Positions 18,667 through 25,060 of a DNA stretch of 64,000 nt are shown here, piece after piece. Positions within the stretch are counted from its first letter, which is position 1; every line of letters starts with the position of its first letter. This DNA is from Pseudoflavonifractor phocaeensis (lineage in GTDB: Bacteria > Bacillota > Clostridia > Oscillospirales > Oscillospiraceae). The notes under the pieces were generated by a model. The model ran no database searches, was not told the origin of the DNA, and saw only the letters and a list, made by a program, of their open reading frames with translations. Made by a program: the position numbers and the translations under genes. The stretch spans positions 62,001-126,000 of the forward strand of contig NZ_JADYUM010000003.1 in assembly GCF_021531815.1 (NCBI RefSeq). Direction: 5' to 3'.

Positions 18667-20145
18667 TTAAAGGATGATACAGATGAGTCCGCCGGAACCC
18701 TCGTTGATGATACGCTGGAGTGTCTCCCGCAGCTTTGCCCTTGCGTCCTCCGGCATCCGTTTCAGCTTCACATTCAGGTCCTCATTGACCAGCTCGTGGA
18801 GGGATTTCCCGAAGATGTTGGCCTCCCAGATCTTGCTGGAGTCCCCCTCATACTCCTGCAGCAGGTAGTTGATCATGTCCTCGCTCTGCTTTTCGCCCCC
18901 CACAATGGGGGATACCTCCGTCTCAATATCCGCCCGGATCATGTGTATGGACGGGGCGCTGGCTTTCAGACGGACGCCGTACCGTCCCCCCTGCTTCATG
19001 ATCTCCGGTTCCTCCAACACCAGGGAGTCGATGGAGGGTACCACGATGCCGTAACCTGTCTCCTCCACCTCCTTCAAGGCGTCAGCCACCTTGTCATAGG
19101 CCGCCTTAACCCCCGCCAGCTGGGTGAGCAGGGCCAGCAGATCTCCGTCATCGCTGACCTGGAAGCCCGACTGCTGGGACAGGGTCTCATAGAACAGGGC
19201 CCGGGGCAGCTCCAGGGAAGCCACCGACAGGCCGATGCCCAGATCGATTGAGGTGATCTGGGCCTGACTGACCACCTCACAGTCCCGGAAGGAGGCCACC
19301 GCCCGCTCCACGTCCCGGATGCGGCACAGCTGTCCGGTGCCCTCCCGGATGGCGGCGTACAGCATGGCCTTGATGGGGTGCTCCTGGGGCAGAGCGTCAA
19401 TCCAGGGCGGCAGGTACAGGTCCAGCTCCTTCAGGGGGAACTCATAGAGAACGTCCTTCAGGATCTCGTGGATCTGCTCCTGGCCAAGCTCCAGACAGTT
19501 CACCGCCATGCAGGTCACGTCATACCGCTGGGCGATGTCCGCGCGGATGGCCTGGGCCCGGTCAGAGTCGGGATAGGCCGAGTTGAGCAGCACCACAAAG
19601 GGTTTGCCCAGCTCCTTCAGCTCGGAGATCCCCCGCTCCTCCGCCTCCAGATAGTCCTCCCGGGGAATGTCGGTAATGGTGCCGTCGGTGGTGATCACAA
19701 TGCCGATGGTGGAGTGCTCCGAAATCACCTTCCGGGTTCCGATTTCCGCCGCCTCCGCCATAGGGATCTCGTGGTCGAACCAGGGAGTGGTGACCATCCG
19801 CTCTGTCTCCCCCTCCAGCTGACCCACCGCCCCGGGCACCATATAGCCCACGCAGTCGATGAGCCGGACCCGGAAGGAGGCCCCTCCGTCCACCGTCACG
19901 CTTACCGCGTCCTCGGGGACAAATTTGGGCTCGGCGGTCATGATGGTCCGGCCCGAACCGCTCTGGGGCAGCTCGTCCCGGGCCCGCTCCCGGCGGTACA
20001 CGTTGTCGATACCCGGGATCACCAGCGTCTCCATGAAACGCTTGATAAAGGTGGATTTTCCGGTACGGACCGGCCCCACGACGCCGATGTAGATGTCGCC
20101 CTCCGTCCGAAGGGCAATATCCTCATAGATTTTGCGGTCTTCCAC
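18667..20145 (-). CDS. spoIVA: Stage IV sporulation protein A
   Basis: SpoIVA is the ATP-hydrolysing, self-polymerising base of the spore coat on the outer forespore membrane. The 492-aa product has a TRAFAC-type Walker A GPVRTGKST at residues 24-32, the SGSGRTIMTAEPKF region, DCVGYM as Walker B and LNSAYP, with the long alpha-helical middle and C-terminal domain typical of the protein. It starts at GTG 20145, 8 nt after GAAGGAGG. A sigma-E-type promoter lies 47 bp upstream. The neighbours are SipL-like and SpoVM genes, its two known partners in assembly. Confidence 0.97.
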   Translation of the reverse strand: MEDRKIYEDIALRTEGDIYIGVVGPVRTGKSTFIKRFMETLVIPGIDNVYRRERARDELPQSGSGRTIMTAEPKFVPEDAVSVTVDGGASFRVRLIDCVGYMVPGAVGQLEGETERMVTTPWFDHEIPMAEAAEIGTRKVISEHSTIGIVITTDGTITDIPREDYLEAEERGISELKELGKPFVVLLNSAYPDSDRAQAIRADIAQRYDVTCMAVNCLELGQEQIHEILKDVLYEFPLKELDLYLPPWIDALPQEHPIKAMLYAAIREGTGQLCRIRDVERAVASFRDCEVVSQAQITSIDLGIGLSVASLELPRALFYETLSQQSGFQVSDDGDLLALLTQLAGVKAAYDKVADALKEVEETGYGIVVPSIDSLVLEEPEIMKQGGRYGVRLKASAPSIHMIRADIETEVSPIVGGEKQSEDMINYLLQEYEGDSSKIWEANIFGKSLHELVNEDLNVKLKRMPEDARAKLRETLQRIINEGSGGLICIIL

Positions 20146-20191: not shown

Positions 20192-20221
20192 ACTCTATGA
20201 GGATAAGCCCTGGAATATAAC
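20192..20221 (-). promoter_or_regulatory. Sigma-E-type promoter of spoIVA
   Basis: On the - strand GTTATATT (20221-20214), a 14-bp spacer and CATAGAGT (20199-20192). This matches the Bacillus sigma-E consensus in 7 of 8 and 6 of 8 positions with the correct spacing, fitting mother-cell expression. Confidence 0.7.
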
Positions 20222-20243: not shown

Positions 20244-20268
20244 GAAAACGGCCGCCCATAGGGCGGCC
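20244..20268 (-). terminator. Terminator of the sipL-like gene
   Basis: GGCCGCCC (20250-20257) pairs with GGGCGGCC (20261-20268), followed on the - strand by GTTTTC. It separates the sipL-like gene from spoIVA. Confidence 0.8.
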
Positions 20269-20303: not shown

Positions 20304-21830
20304 CTACCTCATGCGTGGGATCAGCAGCATCCGGCCCTCGGGGAGGGCGTCCTCGCTGAGTTCATTGGCCTGCAGGATCTGCTGGGTGGTGGTACCGTAG
20401 GCCTTGGCCAGCTCCCAGATACCCTCCCCGGGCGCGGCCAGACGCAGGACCACCGAGGGACAGGGGCCCTCCCCCCGGGTCCTGGGGCCGCCCAGCCGGG
20501 CTTCCCGCACCGACGGTACCTGGGTACGGCCCAGTGTGAGGCAGTGGAACTCCAGGGTGAACCGTACCTCGGCGCCCCCGGCCGCCGGGACGGCAAAGAC
20601 CTCACCGGGGCAGCGGCAGACGCAGGTGCAGCGGTAATCCTCCGGGCAGTCCAGTCGGCAGGTCACGGGAACGGTCCTGTGGGCGCACTGGACCAGGCCG
20701 TTTTCATCCAGGTAGAGGACTGTGATCCAGGCCTCCGCGCTGAGCAGCAGAGTGTTGCCCTCCCGGCTCTGGGTCACCTGGCCCAGGGTCAGGCGGCTGT
20801 CAATGACGCTGCGTACCAGTTCCCCCGTCTCCAGCAGCTCCCGCACCGCCTGTGGCCGGACAGACTGCTCCCCCAACTTCCAAAGTGTCTGGAGCTCGCT
20901 GTCCGCCTCCATCTCATATGCGGTGCTGTACAGGTCCTGCAGCAGAGTCACTGGCCTCCGGCACCGTACCCCAGCCTGGGCCAGCAGCTCCAGGTCCACG
21001 TTCAGACTGCCTCCGTCAGCCAAATCTGTCTCCCAGGTCAGATCGGTGAGCTCCACATCCACCTGGCAGTCCCCCTCCTCATTCTCCCCGGACACCTCCA
21101 TGACCTGGGAGAAGGTGAGGGACTCGTGGCTGGAGGTCAGGCCCCCATCCCCCTCCTGGAGGAGCATATGGAGGTCTACTGTGCCCTTGAAGATCATCTT
21201 GCTGCCCACCAGCTTGCTTTCCGTGCACATGGGCTGGGCCCACAGGGCCATGATCCGGGGCACCTCTCCCGGACTGGAGGGCAGGCGTACCTGCTCCTGG
21301 AATGTAAAGGGCTTCTCCTGAACAGCACTGATCAGACAGGTCTCCCCGTGGAATTGGCGCTGACAAAGCCCAGCCCCCTCCCGCTCCTGGACGCCCCGGC
21401 AAAGGGTACATTTGGAGGGCTGATAGGCGGCCACATCCACCGCCAGGTCCACCCGCAGCAGCACCTTGCGGGGATTCAGGGCCCGGGCCTCCGCCCTGCG
21501 CAGTCTGGGAGAGGCAAAGACGGTCCCATCCCCGGTGAAGCCCGGCGCCTCCGCCTGGCAGGTAAAGGGCAGCCCCACCTCCATCCGCCGCAGTCCGCTG
21601 CCCTCCTCGGGCTGGTACAGGATGGCCGCCTTCACCATACCGGAGACCATGGCCGCTCCGTCCCGGGCCTGCTTCCCCGTCAGCACCGCCTGACCGCATA
21701 CATCCACAATGCGCAAAATGTCCGGGCAGGCATCCGGGACGATACTCTCCAGGGTCTCCTCCTGGCACAGGGTCACCTCCGCCGCCGTTTCATAGAAATT
21801 CATGGTCTCCCGATCAAATTCCAGTTCCAT
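20304..21830 (-). CDS. sipL: SPOCS and LysM domain protein, SipL-like
   Basis: The 508-aa protein begins MELEFDRETMNFYETAAEVT. Repeated beta-rich SPOCS (DUF3794) segments fill residues 1 to about 450, and a LysM domain ends the protein (GEGIWELAKAYGTTTQQILQ, then a LIPRMR end). This order is that of SipL of Clostridioides difficile, which binds SpoIVA through the LysM domain to anchor the coat. Its position next to spoIVA and spoVM supports that role. ATG 21830 has GGGAGAGGA upstream; a frame running further back would cross the promoter. The symbol is by analogy. Confidence 0.85.
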   Translation of the reverse strand: MELEFDRETMNFYETAAEVTLCQEETLESIVPDACPDILRIVDVCGQAVLTGKQARDGAAMVSGMVKAAILYQPEEGSGLRRMEVGLPFTCQAEAPGFTGDGTVFASPRLRRAEARALNPRKVLLRVDLAVDVAAYQPSKCTLCRGVQEREGAGLCQRQFHGETCLISAVQEKPFTFQEQVRLPSSPGEVPRIMALWAQPMCTESKLVGSKMIFKGTVDLHMLLQEGDGGLTSSHESLTFSQVMEVSGENEEGDCQVDVELTDLTWETDLADGGSLNVDLELLAQAGVRCRRPVTLLQDLYSTAYEMEADSELQTLWKLGEQSVRPQAVRELLETGELVRSVIDSRLTLGQVTQSREGNTLLLSAEAWITVLYLDENGLVQCAHRTVPVTCRLDCPEDYRCTCVCRCPGEVFAVPAAGGAEVRFTLEFHCLTLGRTQVPSVREARLGGPRTRGEGPCPSVVLRLAAPGEGIWELAKAYGTTTQQILQANELSEDALPEGRMLLIPRMR

Positions 21831-21899
21831 GGTCGCTGTCCTCTCCCTTGTCACAGTATCATGTCCATTCCGGCCATCCGGGGGCACTGGCTTTGTGAC

Positions 21900-21929
21900 A
21901 CTATATGGCTGGGGGAGAAAATGTATGCC
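21900..21929 (-). promoter_or_regulatory. Sigma-E-type promoter of the sipL-like gene
   Basis: On the - strand GGCATACA (21929-21922), a 14-bp spacer and CATATAGT (21907-21900), about 6 of 8 in each box. It has the same geometry as the spoIVA promoter and would start transcription near 21892. Confidence 0.6.
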
Positions 21930-21934
21930 TGTTT

Positions 21935-22006
21935 TTACTTCAGACCGAACACTCTGCGCAGCAGGCCCCGCAGGCATTTGGGGGAACGTACCACCACGAT
22001 GCCCAT
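21935..22006 (-). CDS. spoVM: Stage V sporulation protein SpoVM (23 aa)
   Basis: This 23-residue amphipathic peptide begins MGIVVVRSPKCLRG and ends RRVFGLK. SpoVM inserts into the convex outer forespore membrane and recruits SpoIVA; the Bacillus peptide is 26 aa with a key proline at position 9, and a proline is at position 9 here too, followed by the same lysine and the basic-hydrophobic helix. GGGGAGG precedes ATG 22006 by about 8 nt. It lies 105 bp upstream of the sipL-like gene and near spoIVA, its two functional partners. It is far below usual gene-finder length cut-offs. Assignment rests on pattern, length and context. Confidence 0.85.
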   Translation of the reverse strand: MGIVVVRSPKCLRGLLRRVFGLK

Positions 22007-22052
22007 GAAAACGCCTCCCCTCCCTCATAGATTGGCCGTTTCCGGCTGTGTC

Positions 22053-22082
22053 ATCCTATGTCACGGGGGCCGTGTTTGACAC
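22053..22082 (-). promoter_or_regulatory. Weak candidate sporulation promoter of spoVM
   Basis: CATAGGAT (22060-22053 on the - strand) matches the sigma-E/sigma-K -10 pattern in 6 of 8 positions, but no good -35 box lies at 14 bp. Confidence 0.25.
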
Positions 22083-22113: not shown

Positions 22114-22160
22114 AGAAAAAACATCCCGAACGGACCGTAAGACGCGGTTCGTTCGGGATA
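22114..22160 (-). terminator. Terminator of the rsgA operon
   Basis: A 15-bp stem with one G-U (22123-22137 with 22145-22159) followed on the - strand by GTTTTTTC. It ends the long run that starts at yicC. Confidence 0.9.
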
Positions 22161-22163
22161 CTT

Positions 22164-23075
22164 TCATTTCATGGATGGGTCCTGCTGGTTTTTGCGCCGC
22201 TCCCAGTCGGGGACGGCCTTAGCCTGCTGGTACAGGCGGACGTAGCTCTGGTGCCGGGTGGGTTGGATCTTGCCCTGGGCCAGGGCCTCCAGCACGGCGC
22301 AGCCCTTCTCCTTCACATGGGCACAGTCCTGAAAGCGGCACTTGTCCAGGTAAGGCGCAAACTCCCGGAAGGCGTATTGCAGGTCCTCCGCCCGGGCCAG
22401 CTCCATCCGGTCCACATCGAAGGAGGAAAAGCCCGGGGTGTCGGCCACCAGAGTGCCGCAGGACAGCCGCAGCAGCTCCACGTGCCGGGTGGTGTGCCGG
22501 CCCCGGCCCAGCTTCTGGCTCACGTCGCCGGTAGCCAGGGCGAACTGGGGATCTAGCACATTCAGGATGCTGGATTTTCCTACGCCCGAGTTTCCTGTAA
22601 AGGCAGATACCTTTCCAGTAATTGCCTGCCGCAATTCCTCCATACCCTCCCCGGTTTCCGCGCTGACCATCAGGGTCCGGAAGCCCGCCGTCCGGTAGAT
22701 GGCGGCCAGGGGCTCCCCATCGGCCAGGTCGCACTTGTTGACGCAGACCACCACGTCACATCCCCGGCTCTCGGCAATGGCGGCCACCCGGTCGATGAGG
22801 AAGGGATCAGTCACGGGGATGGCCTGGGAGGCGATGACCACCAGCTGGTCGATATTGGCCACGGCGGGGCGGAAAAATTCGTTCTTTCGGGGCAGGATCT
22901 CCTCCAGCGCGCCGCTGCCGTTTTCCAGGGGGGTAAAGCGCACCCGGTCCCCCACCAGCGGGGTGACCTTGTCCCGGCGCAGCTTGCCCCGGCCCCGGCA
23001 GGCGGTGACGGTTTGCCCGTCGTCCACGTAATAGAAGCCGCTGAGGGCCTTCATGATGATTCCTTCCGACGTCAT
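22164..23075 (-). CDS. rsgA: Ribosome small-subunit-dependent GTPase A
   Basis: RsgA checks late 30S maturation and is a circularly permuted GTPase. The 303-aa product has an N-terminal OB fold (GIIMKALSGFYYV start), G4 NKCDL at about 114-118 before G1 GNSGVGKSS and G3 DTPGFSS, and a C-terminal zinc motif (CRFQDCAHVKEKGCAV). ATG 23075 overlaps the prkC stop by 4 bp and has GGAG 8 nt upstream. It is last in the operon. Confidence 0.96.
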   Translation of the reverse strand: MTSEGIIMKALSGFYYVDDGQTVTACRGRGKLRRDKVTPLVGDRVRFTPLENGSGALEEILPRKNEFFRPAVANIDQLVVIASQAIPVTDPFLIDRVAAIAESRGCDVVVCVNKCDLADGEPLAAIYRTAGFRTLMVSAETGEGMEELRQAITGKVSAFTGNSGVGKSSILNVLDPQFALATGDVSQKLGRGRHTTRHVELLRLSCGTLVADTPGFSSFDVDRMELARAEDLQYAFREFAPYLDKCRFQDCAHVKEKGCAVLEALAQGKIQPTRHQSYVRLYQQAKAVPDWERRKNQQDPSMK

Positions 23076-25060
23076 GGCGTAAACTCCACAGAGATACTGT
23101 CGGCCTGGACGCCGTTATAATAGACCGTCAAAGTTTTGGTCTCCCCTGCCGGCGCGGTGACCGTCACGGGGACAGTCAGCTCCATGGCGGTATCCACATC
23201 CTGGGAGAAGATCACCGCGCCGTCCATCATCACCTGGACGTTGACCACGTCGCCCCTGTCAGGCAGGGAGATGTCCACGGTCTTGGTGACCTCCTTGGGC
23301 TGACTGGCGGGGTCCGGACCCTGGCTCACCTGGAGATTCACCTTGGTCCCCTCGGATACCATGGTCGTGACCGCGGGGTACTGGTCCACCACCACGCCGG
23401 CTTCCACCGTATCGCTGTATACCGGCGTAATTTCACCCACCTCCAGCTTCTGGAAGGTGATCTGTTTCTCCGCATTGGCCTGGGTCATGCCCACCACATT
23501 AAACATGGGGAATTCCTCCACCTTGGGACCCAGGCTGATGACCAGATGGACGGTGGTGCCAGGCGCCACCGGGGTGTCAGCCAGGGGCGTGAAGGAAATG
23601 ACGTGGTCCTTGGCCACCTCGTCGCTGTTTTCATAGTCGGGGGTATCGTACTTCAGCTTATGCTCATCCAGCACGATAAAGGCCTTGCGGTACTCCAGAT
23701 TATACAGGTCAGGCACCTGGACGATCTGCGGGCCGCCGCTGACGGTGACGGTGATCTGGGTCACCGGCTCCCCCACCTTGCTGCCCGCCGCCGGGTCCTG
23801 GTTCAGGATGGTGCCCGCCTCGGCGTCATTTTCCACCGTATTGCCCAGCACCACGGTGAACCGGCCCAAAAGCGCGGTATCCTGGAGGACCTGCTCATAG
23901 TTCTTGCCCGTCAGGGGTGGGACCTCATAGGTTTGGGGCGGAGCGAAAAGGCCGGAGAAGAAGGTTCGGAACAGGAAATAGAATACCCCCGCCAGAAACA
24001 GCAGCACCGCCGCCACGCAGGCTACAATGGTCCAGGGAGAGCCGCCCCGGCGCTCCTCCTCGTCCTCCTCATAGCGCTGGACGTGCCGGCCGCCGGAGCG
24101 CTCGCTCCTGGGCCGCTCATAGTCCTCCCCCGAGGCGTGAATGTGGGTGACCGGACGGATGCGGGTCTTGTCCTCGTCTGGTTCTTCCTCGGGCAAAAAC
24201 TCGTGGAGGTCATAATCAAAGTTGATGTTGGGATTTTTACGGAACTCCTCCAGGTCGGCGAGCATCTCGTCGGCGCAGGAGTAACGGTCATCCGGGTTGG
24301 GGGCCATAGCCTTCATGGTGATCTTTTCCAGGGCCTCGGGGATGGAGGGATCGATCTCCCTGGGAGACAGGGGGATGGAGTTGATGTGCTGAATGGCCAC
24401 GGACACGGGGGTGTCCCCCTCAAAGGGCAGGCGTCCGGTGATCATCTCATAGAGGACCACGCCGGCGGAGTACAGGTCGGACCGGGCGTCGATGTGGCTG
24501 CCCCGGGCCTGCTCCGGGGAGATATAGTGGACGGAGCCCAGAGCCTCCTGAGTCAGGGTACTGTGTCCCCCGGAGGCCACCCGGGCGATGCCAAAGTCGG
24601 CCACCTTCACGCTGCCGTCCCGGAGGACCATCACATTGTGGGGCTTGATGTCCCGGTGGATGATGCCCCGGCTGTGGGCGTGGCCCAAGGCCTTGACGAT
24701 CTGGGTGATGAAGTGCAGGGCCTCCCGCCAGTTGAGCTTGTTCCCCTTTTTCTGCATGTACTGCTTCAGGGTGATGCCGTCGATGAGCTCCATGACGATA
24801 TACTCCAGCTCAGAGGAGCGGCTCACGTCGTACACCGCCACGATGTTGGGGTGGGACAGCATGGCGACGGCCTGGGACTCGTCGTGGAAGCGACGGCGGA
24901 ACTCGGCGTCCTGGGCCAGATCCTCCCGCAGGATCTTGATGGCCACCAGCCGGTTCAGCCGGTGGCAGCGGGCCTTGTAGACCCGGGCCATGCCGCCGGT
25001 GCCGATGAGCTCCAGTATCTCATATCGGTTATCGAGTAATTTACCGATGTACGGATCCAT
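23072..25060 (-). CDS. prkC: PASTA-domain serine/threonine kinase
   Basis: The 662-aa membrane kinase has an N-terminal kinase domain (glycine loop GTGGMARVYKA, Lys42, HRDIKPHN at 135-142, DFG at 155-157), an acidic linker, one membrane segment around residues 346-368 and three PASTA repeats, followed by a roughly 80-residue beta-type C-terminal domain. PASTA domains sense muropeptides or lipid II outside the cell; PrkC controls germination and wall growth in Bacillus. The PP2C phosphatase gene lies just upstream, the standard antagonistic pair. Confidence 0.96.
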   Translation of the reverse strand: MDPYIGKLLDNRYEILELIGTGGMARVYKARCHRLNRLVAIKILREDLAQDAEFRRRFHDESQAVAMLSHPNIVAVYDVSRSSELEYIVMELIDGITLKQYMQKKGNKLNWREALHFITQIVKALGHAHSRGIIHRDIKPHNVMVLRDGSVKVADFGIARVASGGHSTLTQEALGSVHYISPEQARGSHIDARSDLYSAGVVLYEMITGRLPFEGDTPVSVAIQHINSIPLSPREIDPSIPEALEKITMKAMAPNPDDRYSCADEMLADLEEFRKNPNINFDYDLHEFLPEEEPDEDKTRIRPVTHIHASGEDYERPRSERSGGRHVQRYEEDEEERRGGSPWTIVACVAAVLLFLAGVFYFLFRTFFSGLFAPPQTYEVPPLTGKNYEQVLQDTALLGRFTVVLGNTVENDAEAGTILNQDPAAGSKVGEPVTQITVTVSGGPQIVQVPDLYNLEYRKAFIVLDEHKLKYDTPDYENSDEVAKDHVISFTPLADTPVAPGTTVHLVISLGPKVEEFPMFNVVGMTQANAEKQITFQKLEVGEITPVYSDTVEAGVVVDQYPAVTTMVSEGTKVNLQVSQGPDPASQPKEVTKTVDISLPDRGDVVNVQVMMDGAVIFSQDVDTAMELTVPVTVTAPAGETKTLTVYYNGVQADSISVEFTP

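Follow-up and report, generated by a model that had tools for sequence, protein, structure and literature searches.

A conserved 23-codon gene ahead of sipL is the probable spoVM of a Pseudoflavonifractor genome

Results

A 23-codon ORF between rsgA and sipL is a conserved gene with the features of spoVM

We found that positions 21935-22006 of the window, that is, of the whole 64,000-nucleotide stretch of DNA analyzed here (contig 33, 62001-126000, in a 2.67-Mb assembly that is 98.8% complete), are a conserved protein-coding gene. This 23-codon open reading frame (ORF) is very probably spoVM and would encode the genome's SpoVM orthologue, with a mechanism that we infer from better-known systems. 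It is SpoVM-like over its full length, occurs as a single copy, lies directly upstream of sipL, and has its own conserved promoter-like element. The ORF runs on the minus strand from an ATG at 22006 to a stop codon ending at 21935 and specifies the peptide MGIVVVRSPKCLRGLLRRVFGLK; its assignment draws on the reading of the frame, profile matches, relatives, and pN/pS. A ribosome-binding site, GGGGAGG (22014-22020, minus strand), stands 7 nt ahead of the ATG, and a GGAGG-like site precedes the gene in all 22 genus loci. The first-pass annotation had proposed the ATG followed by 23 codons and a stop, this ribosome-binding site, and a proline at position 9, all of which the sequence bears out; it had left the strand unnamed, and we can now assign the ORF to the minus strand. 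The length and basic-hydrophobic composition of the peptide fit the SpoVM type of about 22-30 residues, and its residues 10-23 have a hydrophobic moment of 0.54, not significantly different from that of shuffled sequences (P 0.18).

Evidence for coding came from the 22 same-genus copies, which amount to 20 different DNA versions encoding 14 different 23-residue peptides. The first, second, and third codon positions held 13, 5, and 19 variable columns, and the mean pS and pN were 0.43 and 0.10. The resulting pN/pS was 0.24 in frame versus 1.12 and 3.56 in the shifted frames; conservation at the codon level, whose lack in relatives had been named beforehand as grounds for giving up the gene, is thus present.

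A profile search, as proposed in the first-pass annotation, aligned the whole 23-mer (residues 1-23) to positions 1-23 of 26 in the NCBIfam model NF033436 (SpoVM_broad), with an E value of 0.0027 and 17.7 bits. This score lies under the curated cut-off of 31 bits, which is a naming threshold and not a biological feature. Because of the shortfall, spoVM would probably be missed by automatic naming, in keeping with the earlier remark that the gene is too short for routine annotation; such neglect is already published. By sequence, the 23-mer matched no Pfam family and no solved structure. Searched over the whole source genome at E <= 10, NF033436 found the spoVM ORF as its sole match (E 0.027). 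At the same threshold, the model also matched 6 of 14 control genomes, five of which were not Bacillus subtilis, and therefore the model alone is no proof of identity.

All 28 aligned close and distant relatives match NF033436 at E <= 1, the best at 3.5e-12, and a SpoVM match was present in 35 of the 40 relatives searched. Within the genus, 22 of 25 genomes, the source genome counted, have SpoVM, and the three that lack it are 58, 80, and 75% complete. Other families of the order gave a match in 13 of 15 genomes, the weakest at an E value of about 1. The SpoVM alignment (A1) takes in such weak matches (E 0.07-1.0), retained as full length. A profile made from the relatives' alignment found a single full-length match in the source genome (6e-14); its three other matches there are partial (E 0.49-4.7), and each falls within a longer frame. 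No second, canonical spoVM, which would have spoken against the assignment, was thus found elsewhere in the genome. A single copy is likewise present in nearly all same-genus genomes with a match; one (G020) has an extra partial match inside a 360-aa frame. Pro9 is found in the window's peptide and in all 34 rows of the SpoVM profile A3, which contains nine divergent SpoVM sequences from the rsgA-sipL interval.

spoVM, sipL, and spoIVA are neighbors with separate promoter-like elements

Downstream of spoVM lies a sipL-like gene (20304-21830, minus strand), recognized with Pfam and from relatives. Its 508-aa product has three SPOCS stretches (PF12673, 85.2 bits) and a C-terminal LysM domain (PF01476, 32.8 bits), the domain content of a SipL. 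It is followed by spoIVA (18667-20145, minus strand), which is intact, with a 492-aa product that aligns over residues 1-492 of 492 and scores 705.3 bits with TIGR02836 against a cut-off of 459.9. These two genes give the only SipL and the only SpoIVA matches of the source genome. The distance from the start of spoVM to the end of spoIVA is 3,340 bp, in agreement with the 3.4 kb given in the first-pass annotation for the three partners. Upstream lies rsgA (22164-23075, minus strand; TIGR00157, 224 bits), which stands outside the coat cluster and is itself preceded by a PASTA-kinase gene (23072-25060).

No stop codon interrupts the sipL frame between its start and a further ATG at 22028 (21831-22028, minus strand), a stretch that overlaps spoVM. 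Translation from this ATG would give a 574-aa product, which we rejected for sipL because the initial 66 codons cross spoVM; the start at 21830 is preferred because relatives align from that ATG. A gene caller choosing the ATG at 22028 would mask spoVM.

Next, we examined promoter-like elements, by motif counts over the genus loci. A -10-like element, CATAGGAT (22053-22060, minus strand), lies 54 nt before the spoVM ATG, and of the 22 genus loci, 21 have CATANNNT in the 130 nt ahead of spoVM, as compared to a mean of 1.3 and a maximum of 6 in dinucleotide shuffles. A conserved TGTCA occupies the -35 position (22077-22081, minus strand), and the combination TGTCA-N14-18-CATA is found upstream of spoVM in 16 of 22 loci (shuffle mean, 0.015). 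Between spoVM and sipL, we found a second element, GCATACA-N14-CATATAGT (21900-21928, minus strand), and CATA-N13-17-CATA is present in this interval in 21 of 22 loci (shuffle mean, 0.29; maximum, 3). The element at spoIVA, TTATATT-N14-CATAGAGT (20192-20220, minus strand), was read in the window alone. All three resemble sigma-E promoters, judged by the B. subtilis consensus.

Two terminator hairpins accompany these elements. The one after rsgA (22123-22159, minus strand; -23.3 kcal/mol, z -5.2) is followed by GTTTTTTC and divides rsgA from spoVM, while the one after sipL (20250-20268, minus strand; folding z -5.4) is followed by GTTTTC. A terminator pattern scan assigned both hairpins to the plus strand; it gave 2 sites where 1.7 are expected, which is no excess. 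Because of the genes' own promoter-like elements and the hairpins after rsgA and sipL, we set aside the operon reading: spoVM, sipL, and spoIVA look like separate sigma-E-type transcripts, as predicted from these signals. The "compact module" of the first-pass annotation therefore stands as a cluster of genes but not as one unit.

TGTCA on the minus strand occurs both at 22077-22081 and at 21890-21900, the latter just after the sipL -10 element, and recurs in many genus loci. Its reading as a SpoIIID site was not supported.

The spoVM-sipL pair is constant in relatives

The first-pass annotation had suggested checking for conservation between rsgA and sipL in related genomes. In all 21 other same-genus loci, spoVM and sipL share a strand, with sipL following 139-255 nt after the start of spoVM, and the separation of the two genes in the genus is 67-177 nt. 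In these 21 loci, spoIVA lies downstream within 5.1 kb in 16 and rsgA upstream of spoVM in 9. We extended the survey to 120 family genomes, each at least 90% complete, among which SpoVM (E <= 0.1) was matched in 68, SpoIVA in 110, SipL in 109, and RsgA in 119. A robust SpoVM match (E <= 0.0036) was present in 61, and in 58 of these, sipL is directly downstream of spoVM. Of the remaining three, two have SipL matches at places not given, and one has SpoVM at a contig edge and no SipL match. Of these 61 genomes, 37 have rsgA no more than 1.5 kb upstream and 31 have spoIVA no more than 6 kb downstream. We also scanned named genomes with SipL, which left 80 loci, 79 of them with room upstream, and SpoVM is just ahead of sipL in all 79, Flavonifractor plautii ATCC 29863 among them. 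The nearest named locus is that of Pseudoflavonifractor phocaeensis An901 (83% SipL identity), and the others are titled Flavonifractor, Lawsonibacter, Colidextribacter, Flintibacter, or Intestinimonas. On these counts, the constant pair is spoVM-sipL, with rsgA and spoIVA frequent but looser neighbors, and the spoVM-sipL-spoIVA layout is a trait of the family, not special to the source genome. We found no paper on this cluster in the group in the open-access literature.

SpoVM was found in none of the eight family genomes without SpoIVA and SipL and in 68 of the 110 with SpoIVA. As it is recognizable in only 68 of 110, SpoVM is not universal for the SpoIVA pathway.

In one family genome (G100; L235:148-2105 and L236:14921-16396), about 31 kb interrupt spoIVA near residue 404, and a large serine recombinase gene adjoins its C-terminal fragment, as in a skin element. 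Two genomes of other genera (G061 and G133) have spoIVA split at the same residue. No paper on such a split spoIVA was found by title.

A hairpin gene is paired with spoVM outside the window

Subsequently, we turned to 30 family genomes that had given no robust SpoVM match and inspected their rsgA-sipL interval. Nine of the 30 intervals hold a divergent SpoVM with Pro9. An ORF of about 50 residues, with two hydrophobic stretches around a proline (hereafter the hairpin gene), is present in 29; in nine of these, a SpoVM starts shortly after it, and 20 have no recognizable SpoVM. Among 13 loci of other families, 11 have a hairpin-type ORF whose end lies 10-110 nt ahead of spoVM. The hairpin loci (L095-L124, L126-L154, and L053-L065) all lie outside the window.

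We built two hairpin profiles, A2 and A4, from ORFs in the rsgA-sipL slot. A2 was made from 20 ORFs and has no row from the 29 family loci on which it was tested (L066-L094). Among 3,934 small ORFs, it picked out the hairpin gene (E 1e-7 to 3e-14) in 13 of 27 additional loci from other genera of the family, with the matches at the spoVM-proximal position, and it matched none of the 24 genus loci, which represent 23 genomes and include the window. The window's genus appears to have lost the hairpin gene; loss is favored over original absence because the gene is present in the rest of the family and in the order.

Over the 120 family genomes, the hairpin was found in 81 and SpoVM, with the wider profile, in 70; both occur in 44, the hairpin only in 37, SpoVM only in 26, and neither in 13. 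Profile seeds came from 22 of the 81 hairpin-positive genomes and not from the other 59, and 31 of the 44 genomes with both gave no hairpin seed. In all 44, the hairpin gene is directly upstream of spoVM on the same strand, at a distance of 8-238 nt. The pair also co-occurs with SpoIVA: at least one of the two was found in 105 of 110 SpoIVA genomes and in none of the eight without SpoIVA and SipL (Fisher P 1.8e-9, uncorrected for phylogeny). Two genomes (G086 and G122) have SpoVM, the hairpin, and SipL and no SpoIVA match; G122 consists of two contigs and is rated 100% complete.

Class-wide, hairpin matches occurred in 110 of 392 genomes and 75 of 219 genera. In 28 of the best 30 loci from these 110 genomes, a SpoVM-like ORF lies 11-105 nt downstream of the hairpin gene, one of the 28 scoring only 7 bits. 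Three of these SpoVM-like ORFs after the hairpin in class relatives (L143, L147, and L150) are without Pro9, having Pro8 in two cases and Ser9 in one.

The hairpin gene is under coding constraint, with a pN/pS of 0.32, 0.32, and 0.26 in three groups as compared to 0.66-0.91 and 1.6-2.3 in the shifted frames. No Pfam or NCBIfam family was matched by more than one of 30 hairpin members at E <= 0.01. A single-sequence AlphaFold model of the Papillibacter hairpin predicts helices at residues 2-21 and 26-48 (mean pLDDT 83). We found no paper on a hairpin gene upstream of spoVM; the search covered open-access literature, so the gene is possibly described elsewhere.

Discussion

By homology, we infer a SpoVM function for the 23-residue peptide. 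During sporulation, the mother-cell sigma factor E would switch on spoVM, sipL, and spoIVA from separate promoters, and the peptide would enter the curved outer forespore membrane, kinked at Pro9. There, it would bind and position the SpoIVA ATPase, which would polymerize into the basement layer, with SipL binding SpoIVA and carrying the remaining coat. By analogy with C. difficile, SpoVM might adjust this step without being indispensable. The steps follow published properties: SpoVM has a kink at Pro9, the only completely conserved residue in a published SpoVM alignment (Fig. 1 of PMC5607322), prefers positively curved membrane, and binds SpoIVA, the last also published for Clostridioides difficile, and SpoIVA binds SipL (PMC5607322).

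The peptide might have departed from the B. subtilis role. Lys2, Ile6, and Ile15, described as critical in B. subtilis SpoVM (PMC5607322), do not define the family; the window has Gly2, Val6, and Leu15 in their place. All 22 same-genus copies have Gly2, as do 50 of the 79 named loci, and the remaining 29 carry Lys or Arg there. According to the same source, B. subtilis with the K2A substitution makes no cortex, and its CmpA checkpoint is set off, Clostridia are without CmpA, and C. difficile SpoVM is largely dispensable. These points make a change of role at residue 2 plausible; a SpoVM-derived peptide with Gly2 would then perhaps take no part in the cortex step and only modulate SpoIVA encasement. 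However, the changes at positions 6 and 15 (Ile to Val and Ile to Leu) are conservative, unlike that from Lys2 to Gly2, and the remaining peptide is under strong purifying selection and therefore still needed for something. We regard a lost or changed B. subtilis role as rather unlikely, though well worth keeping in mind. The window in any case offers a natural Gly2 variant of a residue required in B. subtilis, in organisms without the CmpA checkpoint. Regulation may vary along the same line, since the CATANNNT element precedes spoVM in 49 of the 79 named loci, namely, 48 of the 50 Gly2 loci and 1 of the 29 others, and is thus mostly absent outside the Gly2 clade.

It is very improbable that the ORF is a leader peptide whose translation regulates sipL and whose product is non-functional. 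The ORF is short, precedes sipL wherever sipL was located, and in the genus lies close to it, as such a leader would, but its amino acid sequence is constrained and SpoVM-like, sipL has a start of its own from the promoter-like element that separates it from spoVM, and in the wider class, 28 of 30 loci have the spoVM-like ORF after the hairpin gene. The view that this is merely a short ORF arisen by chance in an intergenic gap can be dismissed: ORFs of 23 codons readily occur at random (the surrounding 3 kb are overlapped by 36 ORFs of 20 aa or more) and the NF033436 score is sub-threshold, but 22 of 25 genus genomes carry this one, nearly all with a match as a single copy, with a pN/pS of 0.24, a conserved ribosome-binding site and promoter-like element, and a fixed place ahead of sipL (79 of 79 named loci).

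The pairing of spoVM with the hairpin gene outside the window leads to a tentative proposal, which we consider possible without leaning toward it. Ancestrally, Clostridia could have had a unit of two peptide genes with spoVM in second place, in which the hairpin, a previously unnamed membrane protein, shares the job of bringing SpoIVA and SipL to the forespore membrane and can replace SpoVM. Lineages would have kept both genes, the hairpin alone, or, as in the window, SpoVM alone with Gly2. If so, the hairpin could be the redundant factor proposed by Ribis et al. for the dispensability of C. difficile SpoVM. Since the hairpin protein occurs with or without SpoVM, it becomes testable how SpoIVA reaches the forespore when SpoVM is missing or dispensable; the hairpin is the part most worth pursuing. 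Sporulation of gut Clostridia is hard to study, and its earliest coat protein tends to drop out of annotation; reading the rsgA-sipL interval as a positional rule yielded the nine divergent spoVM genes where the profile had given no robust match in the genome.

As compared to B. subtilis SpoVM (NF033436), the window's peptide agrees in its whole-length alignment, Pro9, size, basic-hydrophobic make-up, and occurrence of one per genome. It differs in residues 2, 6, and 15, in having 23 versus 26 residues, and in scoring under the cut-off. Its gene adjoins sipL and spoIVA, whereas B. subtilis, according to PMC5607322, is without SipL. C. difficile is similar in having a clostridial SpoVM together with SpoIVA and SipL, with sigma-E control reported there for spoVM (PMC5607322) and, together with SpoIIID repression, for sipL and spoIVA (PMC3789822), and a sigma-E-like element here. 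However, the locus numbers given for C. difficile in PMC3789822, CD2629 for spoIVA and CD3567 for sipL, are far apart, while all three genes of the window fit within 3.4 kb. Last, the window's spoVM would be the same kind of case as those of Galperin et al. 2012, who described the very short spoVM as rarely recognized and added 70 missed spoVM genes by tblastn (PMC3533761). They reported SpoVM as not found in several clostridia and asked whether distant versions hide there (PMC3533761); in contrast, reading the rsgA-sipL interval brought out such divergent versions in 9 of 30 genomes without a robust match. SpoVM and its neglect in annotation were already known, and the gene in the window is a further member of the SpoVM family.
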